This document shows positions 54,428-63,490 of a stretch of DNA of 64,000 bases, piece after piece (within the stretch, counting starts at the first letter, position 1; every line of letters starts with the position of its first letter). Position numbers and translations under genes: made by a program. Under the pieces are notes generated by a model, which saw only the letters and a list, made by a program, of their open reading frames with translations, was not told the DNA's origin and did no database searches. Where the stretch lies: the NCBI RefSeq assembly GCF_026278345.1, contig NZ_CP111085.1, positions 3,799,501 to 3,863,500 of the forward strand, in the 5' to 3' direction. Origin of the DNA: Tellurirhabdus rosea (GTDB lineage: Bacteria > Bacteroidota > Bacteroidia > Cytophagales > Spirosomataceae).

Positions 54428-55468
54428 TTATTGATAAGTTGATTCTCGTTTTGATAAAATGATTTCTTTCAGGGATTCTTTGCCATAAGCAAGGATTTCC
54501 CAGGGAGGAATTCCCACTTTCCACATGAGGATTATAGCCTCCAGCGTTGTCAGATTTTCTGTCAGATTTTGAAGGATGAATCTTTTCTTATGACGGGCGG
54601 CTTCGGTAGTAAATTCGGCGCTGTTATTGCAATTTTCCGTATTTATAATCTTTTCGTTAATCCGGTCAAGCAAGCGTAAACAATACGCCATACTGTCAAT
54701 ATTTCTCTCCCGCAAAATCGGTTCAAAGCGGTGTCGCAGGCATTCCAGATGGATATCCGAAAGGGTGAAATCGGGGCCCATGAAATCCCGGAGCCTGGCC
54801 CGGACAACCTCCCGCTGGGCCTGTTCGTACTCGGCCGGAAACCGGACCTGATGCAGGCTCTCGCTGGTGACCCGGTAATCGAGCAGAACCTGCTCCAGAT
54901 TCCAGATTTTGTAGTGCCGGGCGAGTTCCAGAAACAGGGCGTGGTCCTCCGCATACCGGAGCCGGTAACCGCCCACATGCTGCACGGCGCAGCGCCGGTA
55001 AACGACCGTCGGGTGGTACATCCAGCAGATAAACGTCAGGTTGTAATAGAAATATTCGCTGTGAAACCGGTCGATGCGGATAGGTCGCCGGGCCTCGTCC
55101 ACGACCCGCGCGGCGCACGAAAGCAGCGCGCAGTCGGGATGGGCCGTCATGTACGCATACTGCTGCGCCAGCCGCTCGGGATAGCTGATGTCGTCGGCGT
55201 CCATGCGGGCGATGAACTCGGTCGTCGCCAGTTCGATGCCCCGATTCAGGGTCTCGCTGATGCCCCGGTTGGTTTCGTTCCGCAAAAAACGGATGCGGAC
55301 GTCCCCGTACGACTCGATGATGGCCGCGCTGCCGTCGGTCGAACAGTCGTCGATAATCAGGAATTCAAACGCCGCGAAAGTCTGCGTCAGGATGCTTTCC
55401 ACAGCCTCCCGAAGGTATTTTTCGGCGTTGTAAACCGGCATCAGGACTGTCAGCAGCGGCGTGTTCAT
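54428..55468 (-). CDS. Family 2 glycosyltransferase
   Basis: A 346-residue inverting GT-A enzyme. ATG 55468 begins MNTPLLTVLMPVYNAEKYLR. An upstream extension in the same frame is GC-rich shadow sequence of the preceding gene. FEFLIIDDCSTDGSAAII and EFIARMDADDISYPERLAQQ hold the donor Asp and the DAD motif. It is the last gene of the ABC-type polysaccharide operon and overlaps the previous stop by 4 nt (ATGA). Confidence 0.92.
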   Translation of the reverse strand: MNTPLLTVLMPVYNAEKYLREAVESILTQTFAAFEFLIIDDCSTDGSAAIIESYGDVRIRFLRNETNRGISETLNRGIELATTEFIARMDADDISYPERLAQQYAYMTAHPDCALLSCAARVVDEARRPIRIDRFHSEYFYYNLTFICWMYHPTVVYRRCAVQHVGGYRLRYAEDHALFLELARHYKIWNLEQVLLDYRVTSESLHQVRFPAEYEQAQREVVRARLRDFMGPDFTLSDIHLECLRHRFEPILRERNIDSMAYCLRLLDRINEKIINTENCNNSAEFTTEAARHKKRFILQNLTENLTTLEAIILMWKVGIPPWEILAYGKESLKEIILSKRESTYQ

Positions 55469-56397
55469 AGGGGTTTCATGACCAGGGTGACCGCACGATG
55501 GAGGTAGCGCCTGAGGCGGCGCTGCATTGTGGACGAAATGCGATGCAGAACGGGAAACCGGTACGGCCAGAAGGCTTTGTGAAGGTCCCGCCAGATGCGC
55601 TCGTCCGTAATCCCGTTTTCCGTCAGGTAGCGTTTCAGCCAGTGAAGAAAAAACAGCCGCACCTCTGCGTAGCGGCCCTTTTGCTGAACCGCGGCGGAGA
55701 TGGAGCCCGCCCACTGCCGGTAGCGGTTATGACAGGCGGAAGAGACATAAACCGCCGAATGCAGGTAGATTTTGCACAGAAAAGCCTGGTCTTCGTACAG
55801 GCCGTATAGCCCGGTAAACGACTCGTCGAAAGGGGTTTCCCCGAACAGCGATTTGCGAAGCAGGATGCCGCTCGGACAGGGAGCGGCGCCCTTGCCGAGC
55901 GGGTACAATTCGTGCAGGAGCTGGGGCGGTGCATAAACCCGTTCCCCGGCGACTCCAACGGGGATAATCACGTTTTTCCGCGGGGGATTGGCGGCCCAGT
56001 CGTACCAGCTTTCGGACGCTTCGCAGAGCAGGGCCACGTTCGGATGCTGGTGCATGATAGCCAGTTGCCGGGTCATCTTGACCGGCAGCCAGACATCGTC
56101 GGCGTCGAGAATGGCCACAAACTCGCCCCGGGCCGCGCGAAAGGCGACGTTCCGGCTGGCGGCGGCCCCCCGGTTGGCGTGCTGGGCGTGTTCGAAATAA
56201 CGGATTCGGTCGGGAAACCGGTCGGCCCAGGCTTTGGCCTGCGCGGTGCTCCCGTCGGTAGAGCCGTCATCGACCAGCACAATCTCCCAGTTTGCGTAAT
56301 CCTGCGCCAGCACGCTTTCGATGGCTTCGTTCAGGAATTTTTCCTCGTTGTAAAACCCGATAATGACGGAAATCAGGGGTTGTAGCGGTTCGGTCAT
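55465..56397 (-). CDS. Family 2 glycosyltransferase
   Basis: A 310-residue GT-A enzyme. LISVIIGFYNEEKFLNEAIE, WEIVLVDDGSTDGSTAQAKA and GEFVAILDADDVWLPVKM are classical GT2 motifs. The C-terminus is basic with short hydrophobic patches, suggesting peripheral membrane binding. It lies between the deacetylase and the last GT2 gene with no room for a separate promoter. Confidence 0.92.
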   Translation of the reverse strand: MTEPLQPLISVIIGFYNEEKFLNEAIESVLAQDYANWEIVLVDDGSTDGSTAQAKAWADRFPDRIRYFEHAQHANRGAAASRNVAFRAARGEFVAILDADDVWLPVKMTRQLAIMHQHPNVALLCEASESWYDWAANPPRKNVIIPVGVAGERVYAPPQLLHELYPLGKGAAPCPSGILLRKSLFGETPFDESFTGLYGLYEDQAFLCKIYLHSAVYVSSACHNRYRQWAGSISAAVQQKGRYAEVRLFFLHWLKRYLTENGITDERIWRDLHKAFWPYRFPVLHRISSTMQRRLRRYLHRAVTLVMKPL

Positions 56398-56403
56398 GGC
56401 TGT

Positions 56404-57414
56404 TCAGTTCTGAAACCAGCGGGCAAGCCGCGCCTTGAATTCGTGTCCTTTCCAGTTGTTGACCGGATAGCGGTTGAGCCGAAGCGGATGACTCGCCCGG
56501 GTGACGACCCCCGGCTCCGTGGTCACGGCCGCCCGGAAGGGCGTGTTCTGCACAATGGCGACCGTAGTATCCGTGTGCGAGCCGTAAGGGTAGGCAAACA
56601 GCGGGACGGGGCCGCCAGTCAGCTTTTCCAGAAACACCTTGCTCTGGCCAATCTCCCGCAGCTGCGTTTCGGCGTCCTGATCGGCCAGGGCCGTATGCGT
56701 GACCGTATGGGCGCCGATGCTGAAAAGCGGGTTGCCCAGCAGGTGCCGAAGCTGGCCGGGCGGCATGCAAACCGGCTTTGCCGGACCCGCGGGCGGGGCA
56801 ATGAGCCGACGCAGGGCGGTCAGGGCTTGCTGCTGTTCCGCGTCGGAAAGGGGCCTGAGCCGCCGCCAGAGGTCGTAGTAAAGCTGACACCGGCGAGTTG
56901 GGGGCGGGTCGGCCGCCGACCAGACCTGCTGCCGGGCACGGAGCGAGGGCGTCAGCGTCGTTTCGTCGGCCAGCGTAAACCGGAGGGCTTCGCCGCCGAT
57001 GGGGAGGCCTATTTCCGCAGGAAGCGTTTCGGTTTCCAGAATCAGGTCCTGCAATTCGTCCCACCAGAAAAGGCTCTGCCGTTCGGTATTTTGGGTGGCG
57101 ATAAAAAAGGTCGCCGGAATGCCGTACTGTTCGAGCAGGGGCCGGGCCTGTTCAAAATTATCGATATAGCCATCGTCGAACGTCAGTGCCACGGCCCGGT
57201 CGGGCACTTTCCCCGCCGCCACGCCGTCGGCCAGCTGCGCCAGCGAAACCGGCGTCCAGTGGTCCCGGATCACGCGGAGCTGCTGCTCAAAATTGGCCGG
57301 ACTGACGGCCAGCTCCCAGGGGTCACAGGCGGGCGTATCGACCCGGTGGTACATCAGGACGAGGGCTTTGGGCTCGAAGCGCCGGCGGAGGCGATGCAGG
57401 TACCGTTGAATCAA
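56404..57414 (-). CDS. Polysaccharide deacetylase (CE4, NodB fold)
   Basis: A 336-residue carbohydrate esterase family 4 enzyme. Motif 1 TFDDGY (78-83) supplies the catalytic base and first metal ligand. Motif 2 HTVTH (236-240) supplies the metal His pair. LFAYPYGSHTDTTV is motif 3. The insert of about 115 residues between motifs 1 and 2 is larger than usual and suggests a specialised substrate pocket. No signal peptide is seen, so it may act on a lipid-linked intermediate in the cytosol. The start is TTG, with only 2 nt between it and the methyltransferase stop. Confidence 0.92.
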   Translation of the reverse strand: MIQRYLHRLRRRFEPKALVLMYHRVDTPACDPWELAVSPANFEQQLRVIRDHWTPVSLAQLADGVAAGKVPDRAVALTFDDGYIDNFEQARPLLEQYGIPATFFIATQNTERQSLFWWDELQDLILETETLPAEIGLPIGGEALRFTLADETTLTPSLRARQQVWSAADPPPTRRCQLYYDLWRRLRPLSDAEQQQALTALRRLIAPPAGPAKPVCMPPGQLRHLLGNPLFSIGAHTVTHTALADQDAETQLREIGQSKVFLEKLTGGPVPLFAYPYGSHTDTTVAIVQNTPFRAAVTTEPGVVTRASHPLRLNRYPVNNWKGHEFKARLARWFQN

Positions 57415-57416
57415 GA

Positions 57417-58118
57417 CTAGGCAGGTTTAGTGGCTTTGGCGGTAATGATGACCTGATAATGCGGATCGGTGAAATCCAGCTGCTCCCGGGTTACTTCCGA
57501 TACGCCCATGCCGTACAGAAAAGCCGTGGCGATAAAGACGTTGCCGTGCGTCTGGAGGGCCAGATGGTCGGTTGGAAAGACTTCCGATAACAGCCTGCGC
57601 AGCGAAGCGGCCGTAAACGACCAGAGCCAGTTGTCGTTCCATTCGTCATGGTCGATATGGCTGATGCCCGGCACCGTCAGCAGCAGCACACCGCCCGGCT
57701 TCAGGATGCGTTCACAGGTTTGCAAAGCCCCTTTGAGGTTGTAAATCAGGTGCAGGGTCTGCGTCAGGATGATGCAGTCGAACGTATTGTCCGGAATCTG
57801 CGGAGCGTCGCTGAGGTCGCCCACCAGGGTTGCCATCGGGTTGTTGCTGTGTACGTGCAGCACGTCGCTTTTGGTCAGGCGGTCGCCGCCGAACCGCAGC
57901 GTGTAGCTGTTGTCGCCGATCTCCAGCACCCGCCCCTTGACCCATGCCGATTCCCGTTGCAGGAAATTTTCGATGTAATACCGGTCAACGGGTCCGCCCC
58001 GGTCGTAACCGAACTGGGTGCTGAAAGGCTGGGTCCGGCCCAGATCGCCGACTTCGACATGACCCGGCAGCGGCCGGAAATTCGGGTAGACGCCCGCCCG
58101 GAAAAGCAGCCGCTGCAC
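57417..58118 (-). CDS. SAM-dependent methyltransferase of the polysaccharide operon
   Basis: A class I methyltransferase. Motif I is KGRVLEIGDNSYTLRFGG, with acidic motif II near HVHSNNPMATLVGDL. FDCIILTQTLHLIYNLKGAL and RILKPGGVLLLTVPG are motifs IV to VI. No ATG exists at the expected N-terminus. The first standard start after the upstream gene's stop is GTG at 58118 (233 residues). Conserved-looking sequence (IKTLVKKYTPTFVQRLLFRA) continues upstream to about 58154, so a non-standard start or an overlapping GTG at 58337 is possible. It may methylate the polysaccharide, perhaps as a chain terminator. Confidence 0.8.
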   Translation of the reverse strand: MQRLLFRAGVYPNFRPLPGHVEVGDLGRTQPFSTQFGYDRGGPVDRYYIENFLQRESAWVKGRVLEIGDNSYTLRFGGDRLTKSDVLHVHSNNPMATLVGDLSDAPQIPDNTFDCIILTQTLHLIYNLKGALQTCERILKPGGVLLLTVPGISHIDHDEWNDNWLWSFTAASLRRLLSEVFPTDHLALQTHGNVFIATAFLYGMGVSEVTREQLDFTDPHYQVIITAKATKPA

Positions 58119-58138
58119 AAACGTAGGCGTGTATTTTT

Positions 58139-59050
58139 TTACGAGCGTTTTGATAGTGGTAAGAGTTTGGTGATCCAGTATTTGAAAAACAGGTTCGGTT
58201 TGTACGTCCGCAGGAGCTTCAGCGCCTCGGCGCGGGCCGGAGAGGAGGCTGGGTACTGGCGGTTGCGGAGCCGGTCGTAGACGGCCATGCTGTAATATTC
58301 GCTCCAGATCTGCTGTCCGCGCCGGTACGCCAGCCACTCCGCTTCGGTGGCGAAGAGGGGCGGCTGGCGGGCCAGAACGGCAAAAACCGTGTGGAGCATC
58401 ATCGGCACATTGCCCGACATATTGGTCGTATGAATCCGGTAAGCCGCTATTTTGTGGGTATGATGCAGGACCGGAAACCGCCGCGCGATTTTCAGGTACA
58501 GGTCATAATCTTCGCAGGCCCGCAGGGTCGTATCAAAAAGCAGCTGGTCGAAAACGGTCCGTCGATACAGCACCGTGGCGTGCATGCCGATGTAGTTTCC
58601 TTCCAGCAGCCGCAGGTAATGTTCGTTCTCAATCGGAATCACCTCTTCGGCCAGAAGCCGCCGTTCCGAATCCACTTTATCGTGGGCGCCCGACACAAAA
58701 GCGGCGTCGGGCCGGGCTTCCAGCTGCCCGACGTTGTAGGCAATGCCGTCCGGGTAAAGCCAGTCGTCGGCGTCCAGAAAAACCAGATAATCGCCCCGGC
58801 TGTAAGTAATGCCCGTGTTGCGGGCCGCCGAAAGTCCCTGGTTGGTCTGGTAAACATAGCGTACGCCGGGGTACTGCTCCGCCACCGCCCGGGTATTGTC
58901 CGACGACCCATCGTCCACGACGATGATTTCGACGGGTGCCCAGGTCTGCGCCCGCACGCTGTCGATGGCTTCGGCCAGATAGGTGCCATGATTGTAGCAC
59001 GGGATGATGACCGACACCAGGGGCGAACCGGAAGCTGCTGCGTTTTTCAT
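58139..59050 (-). CDS. Family 2 glycosyltransferase
   Basis: A 303-residue GT-A enzyme. LVSVIIPCYNHGTYLAEAID, VEIIVVDDGSSDNTRAVAEQ and GDYLVFLDADDWLYPDGI are intact. The C-terminal part is helical (FAVLARQPPLFATEAEWLAY). It is one of five GT2 domains encoded in the ABC-type operon. Neighbouring genes are 3 to 20 nt away. Confidence 0.92.
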   Translation of the reverse strand: MKNAAASGSPLVSVIIPCYNHGTYLAEAIDSVRAQTWAPVEIIVVDDGSSDNTRAVAEQYPGVRYVYQTNQGLSAARNTGITYSRGDYLVFLDADDWLYPDGIAYNVGQLEARPDAAFVSGAHDKVDSERRLLAEEVIPIENEHYLRLLEGNYIGMHATVLYRRTVFDQLLFDTTLRACEDYDLYLKIARRFPVLHHTHKIAAYRIHTTNMSGNVPMMLHTVFAVLARQPPLFATEAEWLAYRRGQQIWSEYYSMAVYDRLRNRQYPASSPARAEALKLLRTYKPNLFFKYWITKLLPLSKRS

Positions 59051-59053
59051 CGT

Positions 59054-60307
59054 TCAGGAAACAGGTTGCCGGTGATTCAGATAATAAACCAGCCCCGACA
59101 GGATGCCCCGGACCTCGACGCCCAGCGTCCGGTACCGGAACCCGTATTTCGGAAAGCCCCACACGTAAAGCCAGAAATAATACAGCGGAAGCCCGCGGAA
59201 AAGCCGCCGTTTGTAACCGGCCTCCCGGTACAGTTGCTGCTGGATCAGGGCCGCCGCCGTAAAGCCGCGCATGTAGTTGAACAACTGCTTCCGGAGGGCG
59301 GCCAGCTCCCGGCGGTGTTCGTGGAAAGCCACGGCCCGCGGGTTGTAATGAATGACGTGCCCCCGGGCCAGAATCCGGTACCACATCTCGGAATCGCCGT
59401 TGCAGCCGGCCGCTCCGACGTCCAGCCGCTCGTCGAAAAAGCCGACATCGTCGAATACCGACCGCCGAAACGCCATGTTGGCTCCGGCACCGATTTCCCA
59501 GACGGGCGGCCCCTGCCGGAGCGTCCGTTTGAAATAGGCCATGTCGTAAATCTTGTCGACATAGCCCCGGTTGAAACTCCAGTGTTTTTCAAAGATCAGC
59601 TGGGCCTCGGTTTGGAGTTCGGAGGCAATGACCAGCCCGGTCATGGCCGCCACCTGGGTGTCCCGAAACGACTGCCAGAGCTGGTAAACCCAGGTGGAGG
59701 CGACCACCACATCGTCGTCGGTATAGGCGACAATGGGCATGGTGGCTTTCTGGGCGCCCGTATTGCGGGCAAAATCCAGACCGGGCCGGGGTTCGAGGCA
59801 GTACGTGACGCGGCCAAATTCGCGCGCTACCCGTGCGGTGCTGTCATCGTCCGGTGCGTTATCGACCACGATGATTTCGGCGGGGCGGCAGCTAAGGTTA
59901 AGTAGCGAATGCAGGCAGCGCCGCAGCTGAGCCGCCCGGTTGCGGGTGCAGATGACCACGGCAACGGGCACCTCGGCGGGCAGGCGGGTCGTCTGAAACG
60001 GCTCCAGCACCGCCGCCAGCTGGGTTTGAAGCTCCGCCCGTTCGGGAAGCGGCCGGGCGGGCGGCCGGACCTGATCCGCCGGAGTTCCGGCATAGACCTG
60101 CCGGGTGGCGTCGATGGCGGTGGCTATTTTATCCCACAAAACCGCTTCGTCCGGCTGCTCGCCGGGTTCCAGATACAGGTCGCCTACGGCAATCTCCTGC
60201 CACCAGAAAACCAGATACCAGCCCGATTCGTGGCCCGGCGGAAGCGTGACCGGGTCGTTGTCGGCGAGCTGAAGGTGGCGGATGGTGTAGGAGTACGGCG
60301 CTTTCAT
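59054..60307 (-). CDS. Family 2 glycosyltransferase with N-terminal extension
   Basis: A 417-residue protein. The first 110 residues form an unknown small domain (SGWYLVFWWQEIAVGDLYLE) found before some GT2 domains in cyanobacteria and Bacteroidota. The GT2 part follows: VAVVICTRNRAAQLRRCLHS, AEIIVVDNAPDDDSTARVAR and MPIVAYTDDDVVVASTW, with a DDD metal site. ECM-type long C-terminal helices (about 300-417) follow. It would transfer a sugar to the polymer on the cytosolic face before export. Confidence 0.9.
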   Translation of the reverse strand: MKAPYSYTIRHLQLADNDPVTLPPGHESGWYLVFWWQEIAVGDLYLEPGEQPDEAVLWDKIATAIDATRQVYAGTPADQVRPPARPLPERAELQTQLAAVLEPFQTTRLPAEVPVAVVICTRNRAAQLRRCLHSLLNLSCRPAEIIVVDNAPDDDSTARVAREFGRVTYCLEPRPGLDFARNTGAQKATMPIVAYTDDDVVVASTWVYQLWQSFRDTQVAAMTGLVIASELQTEAQLIFEKHWSFNRGYVDKIYDMAYFKRTLRQGPPVWEIGAGANMAFRRSVFDDVGFFDERLDVGAAGCNGDSEMWYRILARGHVIHYNPRAVAFHEHRRELAALRKQLFNYMRGFTAAALIQQQLYREAGYKRRLFRGLPLYYFWLYVWGFPKYGFRYRTLGVEVRGILSGLVYYLNHRQPVS

Positions 60308-60314
60308 GAGACGG

Positions 60315-61601
60315 TTACAGCTGGTACTTTATTTCTTCTTCCTGAACCAGTTGGATGGGGAAGTGGGGACGTACGGCGCCCCACCATTTGCCCTGAAACC
60401 GCAGATGCTCCTCCCGGTGGTCCGCCACGTCGAACGTCAGGCAGTGATCAAAATAAAAATAGTCCTCCCAGCCGTCGCGGTAGATGGTGATCGAAAGCGA
60501 ATGCGAACCATTGTTGAGGAAATTGCCGGGAATTCGGCAGGTGCCGCGGACCAGACCTTTCTGGCATTCCAGCGGCGAGGACATGGTGTCGAAGAGGCAA
60601 ATGTCTTCCTCGTTGAAAAGCTGGAGGGTCACCAGCAGCGCCGGACTGTCGTCCATTACCCACAACCGAAAATCAAACGTCAGCGGCGTGCGGGTGTCGA
60701 TAAACCGGTCGTGCGCCGGATCTTCGGGAATAAGGCTGATCGACTGGACGCGAATCCAGTCGGTTCCGGGCGAATCGGCCGGGCTTTTCCAGCATTGCCG
60801 TAGCTGGTTCGACTGGGCCAGGCCCATGTACTGATGAATCACCGAGCCGACCGGCCCCGAAGCCATCAGACGGCCTTTCTGCAACCAGACGGCCTGGCTG
60901 CACAGGTGGCTGACAGCCTGCATATTATGACTGACAAAGAGAATCGTGCGACCCTGATGGCGCGAAAAATCGAGCATCTTGTCCAGGCATTTCTTCTGAA
61001 ATTCGGAGTCGCCCACCGCCAGCACTTCGTCGGCAATCAGAATATCCGAATCCAGATGCGCCGCCACGGCGAAAGCCAGCCGGACGTACATGCCGGAGGA
61101 ATATCGTTTGACCGGCGTATCGATGAAGGCACTGATGCCCGAGAACTCCACAATTTCGTCGAACCGATGCCGGATTTCCCCGCTTTTCATGCCGAGGGTG
61201 TACCCGCTGAGAAAGATGTTTTCCCGGCCGGAAAGCTCCTGGTGGAAGCCGGTCCCCACCTCCAGCAGACTGCTCAGCCGCCCGTTGCCCCGGACCACGC
61301 CTTCTGTCGGCCGGATGATACGTGAGATGATTTTAAGCAGCGTGGATTTGCCGGAACCGTTGCCGCCGACGATGCCCCACGTTTCGCCCTGTTTTATCTG
61401 CAGATTGATATGTTGTAACGCCCAGATGAAGTCCGGTTCAGACGCGCCCGGCCGGTACGCCTCAGCCGAGGGGTTGCCTTTCTGGCCGCCGAACAGTTGC
61501 CGCCACCAGAGATTCAAATCCTGTTTGAAGGAGCCCGAACCCAGTGTGCCCAACCGATACCGCTTTGACAGATTACTTATTTCAATGGAAATGTCAGACA
61601 T
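60315..61601 (-). CDS. Wzt-type polysaccharide ABC transporter ATPase with C-terminal glycan-binding domain
   Basis: A 428-residue ABC ATPase that powers export of the polymer with the Wzm permease. Walker A GGNGSGKST (Lys85), the Q-loop region EVGTGFHQELSGRENIF, the signature RYSSGMYVRLAFA, Walker B ILIADE (Asp191, Glu192) and the H-loop His225 are intact. Residues about 262-428 form a Wzt_C-like beta-sandwich (SLIPEDPAHDRFIDTRTPLT). That domain recognises a non-reducing-end cap in known systems and so links export to chain termination. The gene lies 11 nt after the GT2-Wzm fusion. Confidence 0.94.
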   Translation of the reverse strand: MSDISIEISNLSKRYRLGTLGSGSFKQDLNLWWRQLFGGQKGNPSAEAYRPGASEPDFIWALQHINLQIKQGETWGIVGGNGSGKSTLLKIISRIIRPTEGVVRGNGRLSSLLEVGTGFHQELSGRENIFLSGYTLGMKSGEIRHRFDEIVEFSGISAFIDTPVKRYSSGMYVRLAFAVAAHLDSDILIADEVLAVGDSEFQKKCLDKMLDFSRHQGRTILFVSHNMQAVSHLCSQAVWLQKGRLMASGPVGSVIHQYMGLAQSNQLRQCWKSPADSPGTDWIRVQSISLIPEDPAHDRFIDTRTPLTFDFRLWVMDDSPALLVTLQLFNEEDICLFDTMSSPLECQKGLVRGTCRIPGNFLNNGSHSLSITIYRDGWEDYFYFDHCLTFDVADHREEHLRFQGKWWGAVRPHFPIQLVQEEEIKYQL

Positions 61602-61612
61602 AGGCTACCGGG

Positions 61613-63490
61613 CTATAGAAAGTCCATCACGGTTTCTTTCTGTTTATTGAAAAGGAGAATACCTGCCATCAGCAGGACACCGCTCAGTGCGCTACTGTAA
61701 ATAAGCTGGCCCGTCGCGAAGGTCCCTTCGCCCAGCAACCCGTAGCGAAACGCCTCAAAAAGCGGGGTCAAGGGATTGAGGGCAAGCAGCCACTGGTTGG
61801 CTGGGTTGATGCCGGACAGGGGATAAATGACGGGCGTAACAAACATCAACATCCTGACGGCCAGACTCGAAAAGTTGGACAGGTCTCGGTACTTGGCGGT
61901 AATCACCGATAAAATCAGCCCAAGGGCCAGACTCAGACCGGCCACCAGCAGAATGGCAACCGGGGCAAAAAGAAACCAGGCGTTCAGCCGGAAAGGCATC
62001 CCCTCCACGGTCCAGTAGTAAACCAGCACGCCCGTGAGCAACCCCAGTTGAATCAGCAGGCGAAGAAACTGGGAACTGGTGATGGACAGCGGAATAACCA
62101 GACGCGGAAAGTAAACTTTGCCGAATAGTTCGGCGTTGGCCGTGAAGGTGTTCGACGTGCCGGTAAAGACTTCGTTGAAAAAATTCCAGAGCACCGTCCC
62201 CGACAGGTAGAACAGCACCGGCGGCACCGAACCCGTTGACAGGCCGACAAACCGGTTGAAAACCAGCACGTAGATAAAGACCGTGAGGATGGGCTGCAGC
62301 AACATCCAGAGAGGGCCGAGCAGGGTTTGCTGGTAACTGACCAGAAAATCGCGCCGGACCAGCCGGGCCAGCAGTTTGCGGTAAGCCCACAGACCGGCCA
62401 GGTCGAGGTCCCACCAGCGGGTTTTGCTGGAAACCTCCCAATCCCACTTCACGGAGGCCCGGTCCGACGGGCTGGACGAAAGCAGCCGGTTCAGGGCGGT
62501 AAATGACTGCCGGGCCGCTTTTTTGAGCAGCAGCTTAAGCATGAAAAAGACGAGCCCGATACTTGAATGCAACCGGAACGAAGCCCGCAGCGCCGGAAAA
62601 ATGTTCCGGACATCGCCCGTCATTTCCCAGGTCTGGATGGCACTGAAGACGCCATAGTAGGAGTAATGCCGCTTCGAACGGGTCAGAATGCGCTTTTTTT
62701 TGTCCTCGGGCAGGTGGTTCTGAATGTTATTGATGACCGTCAGCAGGTCGTCGAGGCCCCGGCCGTGCAAAGCCTTGAGACTGGAGATGGACCCCTGATG
62801 GCCGCGGTATTCGGCCAGGAGTTCGGGCGTGTAGGCCACCGGATAGTGCCGGGCAATGCGCGTCCACATCTCCCAGTCTTCCCCGTAGATGGCCCCGTAA
62901 AAAGCGCCCAGATGCTCGTAAACGGACCTTTTCACGACCATCGAGACGTACTGAGCGCGCTGCTTCTCGGCAATTTTTTCGAGCCAGTTGTCGAGGATTT
63001 GCGCTTCCGGAACCTCGGTGTCCTGAACGGCATGCACCCGCCCACGTTCGTCGATATACGCCACCCGGCAAAAGGCGGCCCCGGCCTCCGGAAAATCCTT
63101 GAAAACTTTGGTCATCTTCCGGTAAAAGCCGTGGTGAATCCGGTCGTCCCCGTGAAGGAGGTGAATCAGCTGGCCTCTGGACCGGTTCAGGCAGGTTTCG
63201 AAGTTGCGGAGACTGCCGACATTCTGGGGCTGGCGGTAGTACGAAACCCGGCCCTGGCCCAGCCGACGCACAAGCGCCTCCACATCGGCATCGGTACTGG
63301 CGTCGTCGACCACTTCAATCTGCATTTGATCGGGACCCATATCCTGCGCCAGCACCGATTTCAGGGTCTCCTCCAGAAAGCACGAACAGTTATAGGCCGG
63401 AATCATCACAGACCAGAGCGGCCGGGCTGTTTCTTCGGGCAGGGGCAGTACGGCGGGAGGTGACTTGGGAATGCGATCCACGTCTATCAA
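61613..63490 (-). CDS. Fusion of GT2 glycosyltransferase and Wzm ABC-2 permease
   Basis: One 625-residue frame joins two complete modules. Residues 1-335 are a GT2 enzyme (WSVMIPAYNCSCFLEETLKS, MQIEVVDDASTDADVEAL, IHLLHGDDRIHHGFYRKM). Residues about 347-625 are a full Wzm/RfbA-type permease starting VKWDWEVSSKTRWWDLDLAG, with RLVRRDFLVSYQQTLLGPLW and six hydrophobic helices. Separate Wzm proteins usually begin at the equivalent of residue 347, where an in-frame GTG (62452-62450) exists and could give a second, permease-only product. The first codon is TTG; a GTG three codons later is an alternative start. There is no stop or gap between the modules. The gene heads the operon with the Wzt gene downstream. 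Confidence 0.92.
   Translation of the reverse strand: MIDVDRIPKSPPAVLPLPEETARPLWSVMIPAYNCSCFLEETLKSVLAQDMGPDQMQIEVVDDASTDADVEALVRRLGQGRVSYYRQPQNVGSLRNFETCLNRSRGQLIHLLHGDDRIHHGFYRKMTKVFKDFPEAGAAFCRVAYIDERGRVHAVQDTEVPEAQILDNWLEKIAEKQRAQYVSMVVKRSVYEHLGAFYGAIYGEDWEMWTRIARHYPVAYTPELLAEYRGHQGSISSLKALHGRGLDDLLTVINNIQNHLPEDKKKRILTRSKRHYSYYGVFSAIQTWEMTGDVRNIFPALRASFRLHSSIGLVFFMLKLLLKKAARQSFTALNRLLSSSPSDRASVKWDWEVSSKTRWWDLDLAGLWAYRKLLARLVRRDFLVSYQQTLLGPLWMLLQPILTVFIYVLVFNRFVGLSTGSVPPVLFYLSGTVLWNFFNEVFTGTSNTFTANAELFGKVYFPRLVIPLSITSSQFLRLLIQLGLLTGVLVYYWTVEGMPFRLNAWFLFAPVAILLVAGLSLALGLILSVITAKYRDLSNFSSLAVRMLMFVTPVIYPLSGINPANQWLLALNPLTPLFEAFRYGLLGEGTFATGQLIYSSALSGVLLMAGILLFNKQKETVMDFL

Follow-up and report, generated by a model that had tools for sequence, protein, structure and literature searches.

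An in-frame fusion of a GT2 glycosyltransferase with a Wzm-type ABC-2 permease at a polysaccharide export locus, shared with Larkinella soli

The fused gene and its operon

The window, that is, the whole stretch of 64,000 nucleotides analysed, carries on its minus strand a gene in which a GT2 glycosyltransferase runs directly into a Wzm-type ABC-2 permease. The open reading frame occupies positions 61613-63490 of the minus strand and comprises 625 aa when counted from the TTG at 63488-63490, with zero internal stops, and two Pfam domains are recognized in it, PF00535 (Glycos_transf_2) over residues 27-164 (E 1.2e-21) and PF01061 (ABC2_membrane) over residues 376-585 (E 1.6e-19). The initial annotation had already read the transferase as continuing into the permease without a stop, which is borne out by the single open frame, by the presence of both domains and by a counterpart in Larkinella soli, the sequence of this assembly holding neither a stop nor a frameshift around 62450-62500. 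The coordinates that it gave to the frame, 61613-63490, also hold, on the minus strand, but sequence comparison places the start of the gene likely at the GTG of residue 4 (63479-63481, giving MDRIPKSPP) rather than at the TTG, since in the Larkinella soli copy a TGA sits directly before the same GTG. In agreement with a start at residue 4, M-x-R-I-P is the N-terminus of several stand-alone relatives. Counted from this conserved GTG, the gene covers 61613-63481 and encodes 622 aa.

The fused gene leads an operon-like run, all on the minus strand, which continues with a Wzt-type ATPase, two GT2 glycosyltransferases, a methyltransferase, a deacetylase and two more GT2 enzymes. The ATPase (60315-61601, 428 aa, ABC_tran E 4.7e-21) lies 11 bases downstream of the fused gene and is the likely partner of the permease half; a Wzt gene follows the fused gene in all three fused loci, namely that of the window and both of Larkinella. 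Its best NCBIfam models are those of teichoic-acid and galactan exporters, with scores below cut-off, and its C-terminal extension resembles Wzt_C weakly, under the Pfam cut-off (E 0.0035 in the window, 4e-4 and 7.3e-6 in Larkinella). No Wzt_C was detected at E 0.1 in the ATPases of Hymenobacter tibetensis and of genome G152, nor did a PDB search with the 161 C-terminal residues of the window's Wzt give a meaningful match. The next two genes encode GT2 enzymes of 417 aa (GT417, 59054-60307) and 303 aa (GT303, 58139-59050), the former matching at 64% a 430-aa glycosyltransferase of the Larkinella locus L031 and at 43% the first part of a triple glycosyltransferase of genome G171. They are followed by a SAM methyltransferase (57417-58250), whose frame opens at 58337 and whose start is provisional, by a polysaccharide deacetylase (56404-57414) and by two GT2 genes, at 55465-56397 and at 54428-55471, the last of them inside a 428-aa frame and also with a provisional start.

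The two halves and the systems they resemble

The GT2 half (residues 4 to about 332, positions 62495-63481, minus strand) was delimited by PF00535, a 13-sequence alignment, and a predicted model with its fold matches. In the numbering of the fused frame, HGDD is found at 113-116 and EDWEMW at 204-209; HGDD and the E-D of the latter are invariant in 13 of the 13 aligned sequences, the window included, one of them reading EDFEMW. We take HGDD to be of the D-x-D type and E-D to hold the acidic base residues, so that, as judged from the alignment, the GT2 half keeps catalytic-type residues. The predicted model, built on an alignment of 6 sequences, is good in the GT-A domain, with a mean pLDDT of 60.1 over the whole model, and poor in the permease half (pLDDT mostly under 50, 6 sequences), and the fold searches in effect probed the GT2 half alone. 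Residues from about 18 to 325 of the model match GT-A enzymes with Z scores up to 20.6. In fact, the GT-A fold is shared with TarS, TarP and RmlT (Z 17-21 over 263-297 aligned residues), with chondroitin polymerase (Z about 19 over 240-242 residues) and with heparosan synthase (Z about 17 over 212-214 residues), the sequence identity in these matches being 12-21%. To our knowledge, none of these enzymes, whether TarS, TarP, RmlT or the chondroitin and heparosan polymerases, is fused to an ABC permease.

The GT-A parts of the BcsA cellulose synthase and of hyaluronan synthase also match (Z about 15-17). In these proteins a GT2 domain and a membrane channel are combined in one polypeptide, with synthesis coupled to export, and processive synthases of this type are characterized by a Q-x-x-R-W motif together with the synthase channel. 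The window protein differs from them in that its channel half is an ABC-2 permease and in that Q-x-x-R-W is absent anywhere in the fused frame, which sets it outside the processive synthases.

The permease half (residues 349-625, positions 61616-62446, minus strand) was assigned through PF01061 and through PDB sequence matches to the Wzm of Aquifex aeolicus (6m96 and 6oih, residues 373-582) and to TarG (6jbh). This half, too, keeps conserved residues. TarGH, the teichoic-acid exporter, is thus related by sequence through its ABC-2 permease, and we know of no transferase fused to it. The Aquifex Wzm-Wzt O-antigen transporter (6m96, 6oih, 7k2t) is similar both in the sequence of its permease and in having an adjoining Wzt gene. 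In a passage of PMC6379404 the interface helix of the Aquifex Wzm is placed at residues 3-19, whereas in the window protein that helix comes only after an entire GT2 enzyme. A Wzm would stand alone, without an N-terminal enzyme, and the permease lies here in a 625-aa fused frame; on its sequence, then, the fused protein contains a Wzm domain, and an ordinary Wzm it is not.

The junction

The junction was placed at residues 311-348 (62447-62560, minus strand) from the alignment, the helix in the model and the ends of unfused relatives, and consists of the end of the C-terminal helix of the GT2, a short linker and the N-terminal tail of the Wzm. In 60 GT2 frames not fused to a permease, a set in which some genes are repeated through overlapping loci and two rows belong to the triple enzyme of G171, the C-terminus falls at a median of window residue 331, and within 325-345 in 52 of them. 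As regards the permease, a W-x-W landmark is present in 19 of 43 unfused Wzm frames shorter than 330 aa (duplicates included) and absent in the other 24, and 15 of those 19 start 6-9 residues before it, which corresponds to window residues 340-343. Since the unfused transferases end at about 331 and the unfused permeases begin at 340-343, the two proteins follow one another almost without a spacer, only about 10 residues being additional. In the model, a long helix is predicted to extend to residue 338, with falling confidence (block means of 77, 68 and 57).

Larkinella soli (taken to be genome G017) carries the fusion twice, in contigs C11 and C31. The C11 copy is an intact frame of 622 aa, identical to the window protein at 357 of 622 residues (57%) and aligned with it gap-free through the linker; the C31 copy is stop-free from midway through the GT2 and on into the permease, its frame being broken upstream at a single ambiguous base. 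As two full domains share one frame and the 622 residues align without gaps to C11, the fusion cannot be attributed to chance, and at the level of sequence it is confirmed as genuine. Within the junction, only 6 of 38 residues are identical between the window and C11, again without gaps, while its length is the same in C11 and one residue shorter in C31. By the NG86 method, dN/dS was 0.35/1.26 for the glycosyltransferase, 0.29/1.38 for the permease and 1.18/2.36 for the linker, dS being near saturation; dN is thus well below dS in both halves. Given the low conservation of junction residues (linker dN 1.18), it is only the junction length that argues for constraint.

Identity between C11 and the window varies along the protein, since 81 residues of the C11 transferase match a neighbouring stand-alone enzyme exactly. 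Residues 42-122 of the C11 fused GT2 (L031 6051-7919, minus strand) are those of a stand-alone glycosyltransferase of the same contig (L031 1632-2639, plus strand), with 242 of 243 bases identical, a level much higher than over the remainder of the two, probably as a result of gene conversion.

Distribution of the fusion

Homologues were searched for at four taxonomic levels, the genome sets of which overlap. In the family, 41 of 222 genomes gave a match at E 1e-60 or better (best 5 candidates per genome); in the order, 44 of a sample of 390 did so at 1e-80, and in the class, 15 of a sample of 395 at 1e-75 (best 3 candidates per genome in both). In the phylum, the permease half was used as query, giving 56 of a sample of 395 genomes at 1e-40 (best up to 6 per genome), so that this search concerns permeases close to that of the window (E at most 1e-40). 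Among the best-scoring candidates of these searches, the unbroken fusion was found only in the window and in Larkinella soli, and none of the 58 other matches listed in the phylum search lies in an open frame longer than 350 aa. The same two-domain architecture is therefore present elsewhere in the Cytophagales, in another genus of the family. The initial annotation had proposed that its reading would fall if all close relatives carried two separate genes; this is not so, Larkinella soli being fused, and the other adjacent pairs examined consist of two genes. Within the window's own genus, the one further genome contains a distant permease alone (36% identical) and lacks the fusion; in G163, which belongs to the genus of Larkinella, only a 41% permease appeared among the best 5 candidates.

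Adjacent but split pairs of GT2 and Wzm occur in G205, G208, G225, G340, G415, G457, G328, G493 (with a larger gap) and G515, and on a plasmid of Hymenobacter tibetensis. At the order level, the two were found together in 29 of the 44 genomes with a match (best 3 candidates per genome): as one span in the window's genome, in G017 and in G515, that of G515 with stops, and in the other 26 as two distinct matches that share a strand and lie within 12 kb of each other. In the remaining genomes with a match the GT2 alone passed the threshold (10) or the permease alone (5). A plasmid search matched 281 records, a single one of which covered at least 80% of the query, namely the split pair of Hymenobacter tibetensis. 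A first scan of contigs for homologues confirmed 3 loci, one of them fused (Larkinella soli), and two scans of viral contigs for further homologues found none.

The frame lengths reported by the searches can bridge stops and were used to pick candidates, not as proof of fusion. Several long frames were discarded in this way. Direct reading showed two in-frame stops between the genes both in G208 (666 aa) and in G340 (698 aa); in G433 (653 aa) and G467 (654 aa) the Wzm is a separate frame; the spans of G515 and G921 contain stops, the former being also read as two frames; and in G225 (473 aa) the Wzm is separate and the GT2 has a frame break of its own. This GT2 gene of G225 (L089 4482-5231, minus strand), beside the Wzm, is cut short in the conserved YGEDWEMW region, and represents either a pseudogene or a sequencing error.

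Among the papers listed in full-text literature searches, judged by titles and the openings of abstracts and with most subscription journals outside the coverage, none deals with a GT-Wzm fusion. From the sequences surveyed, the fusion appears as a rare, new architecture of known parts, although GT2-Wzm fusions may already stand in domain databases.

Evolutionary history

How the fusion arose is a question apart from what it does, and its odds do not compete with those of the functional readings. In the tree of the permeases, the window is grouped with Larkinella C11 (98/88), and the clade around them (96/88) also takes in C31 and the split pairs of G205, G208 and G225; in the joint tree the three fused copies and these same split pairs make up one clade (97/94). 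In the glycosyltransferase tree, the grouping at 99/95 comprises the window, C11 and the split G205, G208 and G225 rows; C31 is added only in a weakly supported set (82/74), to which two stand-alone glycosyltransferases belong as well. We lean slightly towards a single ancestral fusion, later split again in the lineage of G205, G208 and G225, over two or three separate fusions. This is in accordance with the one supported clade that contains all fused copies and these split pairs in the permease and joint trees, and a single fusion with re-splitting fits the near-equal junction lengths. Nevertheless, the best trees do not unite the fused copies as one clade (AU p 0.039 for the permease, 0.087 for the glycosyltransferase and 0.104 for the joint tree), and the glycosyltransferase tree is disturbed by the 81-residue stretch common to C11 and the stand-alone Larkinella enzyme.

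Function of the fusion

The coupling of polysaccharide synthesis to export by ABC transporters is hard to test with separate enzymes. For capsule export, a passage of PMC11041684 has separate transferases carrying out synthesis before or during export. The portal through which Wzm receives its substrate adjoins the N-terminal interface helix and the LG-loop, as described in passages of PMC6379404 and PMC9445017, and a section of the review PMC6286764 states that chain length varies with the transferase to transporter stoichiometry in systems devoid of terminal caps. In the E. coli O9a WbdD-WbdA-Wzt system, as that review presents it in part, chain assembly and termination are physically coupled, and Wzt recognises the finished end; such coupling is similar in kind to that proposed here, but it is established there through protein association and cap recognition, and in the window through covalent fusion to Wzm.

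The genuine fusion is, in our judgement, probably a tether that holds the GT2 at the portal of the transporter, in a transferase to transporter ratio of 1:1. The product would be a single membrane protein whose N-terminal GT2 domain would face the cytoplasm and whose C-terminal part is the Wzm permease. Provided that two Wzm and two Wzt subunits assemble as they do in Aquifex, each transporter would bear two GT2 domains. Tethered just before the interface helix, these would be kept in the cytosol near the portal, and a lipid-linked polysaccharide could receive a sugar and be exported at the same site. As the fusion would fix the ratio at 1:1 and keep the enzyme at the portal, it could set chain length and rate through this stoichiometry in pathways without caps. 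The initial annotation went further in suggesting that the GT2 performs the last sugar-adding step and that substrate could be channelled; the step may be early, repeated or last, and channelling is speculative. Counting against a tether, related operons work with two genes, so that tethering is not required for function, and the system is missing from the one further genome of the genus. A natural covalent tether between transferase and permease, together with relatives that keep two genes, would lend itself to a direct test of physical coupling, and for structural studies the fusion is a transferase-transporter unit that could be purified.

It is rather unlikely that, instead, adjacent genes in the same frame simply lost the intervening stop, with a fused protein that is tolerated and confers no advantage. 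In G208 the two genes are adjacent and in the same frame, with two stop codons and about 25 codons between them, which is the expected starting state for such an event; the fusion occurs in only 2 of the 222 family genomes, the window's and G017 (best 5 candidates per genome), and few residues of the junction are conserved (6 of 38). The length of the junction, however, has been kept across two genera, with one residue less in C31, despite divergence to 57% identity.

It is improbable that two proteins are produced, the full-length fusion and a permease translated on its own from a start within the gene, with transporters of mixed composition as the outcome. The initial annotation had placed an in-frame GTG exactly at the usual Wzm start, and there is indeed one nearby, at residue 347 (62450-62452, minus strand), a possible internal start; comparison with unfused Wzm starts and with the Larkinella copies shows that it lies 2 residues before W349, the first W of W-x-W, instead of the 6-9 found in 15 of the 19 unfused frames with the landmark, and that it is not conserved. 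In Larkinella C31, an ATG in the same frame precedes W-x-W by 10 residues, close to the position at which free Wzm genes begin, but C11 has no in-frame ATG, GTG or TTG from 21 residues before to 2 after the corresponding W. Free permease may therefore be made from some copies, and is not a feature shared across them.

Least of all is it probable that two real genes were joined in assembly by a miscounted homopolymer hiding a stop: a run of six A does lie at codons 323-324, and one shifted frame stops at codon 333, close to the stand-alone median end of 331, but this coincidence is weak because stops are frequent in that frame (12 in codons 1-310); third positions stay rich in G+C through the junction (0.80 in codons 311-350), and a missed stop is unlikely given that both Larkinella copies are fused in frame at the same point in another assembly.

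Other fusions in related operons

Transferases of this operon are also found fused in other combinations. In G171 (L095 2449-5496, minus strand), one frame of 1015 aa has parts matching GT417 (43%), GT303 (44%) and the fused GT2 of the window (47%), and in G152 (L110 1498-3549, plus strand) a frame of 683 aa comprises homologues of GT417 and GT303, the first two parts of the G171 protein. A GT303 homologue is fused to a SAM methyltransferase in Larkinella C31 (L032 1426-3078, minus strand), in G328 (L098 60-1691, minus strand) and in Marivirga (L039 1174-2856, plus strand), unlike in the window, where the methyltransferase (57417-58250) is a separate gene.

These alternative fusions suggest that polysaccharide operons of this type in the Cytophagales encode an assembly docked on the transporter: permease, methyltransferase and three GT2 enzymes would make up one complex at the export portal, and different lineages would have fixed different contacts as gene fusions. 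We advance this extension of the tether only tentatively, and regard it as doubtful. Were it true, synthesis, capping and export of the chain would proceed at the same time, export not having to await a finished chain, and the pattern of alternative fusions would predict which enzymes touch each other.

Near the C31 fusion, a frame of 763 aa (L032 7202-9493, minus strand) appears by eye to consist of two tandem acyltransferase-type membrane domains.
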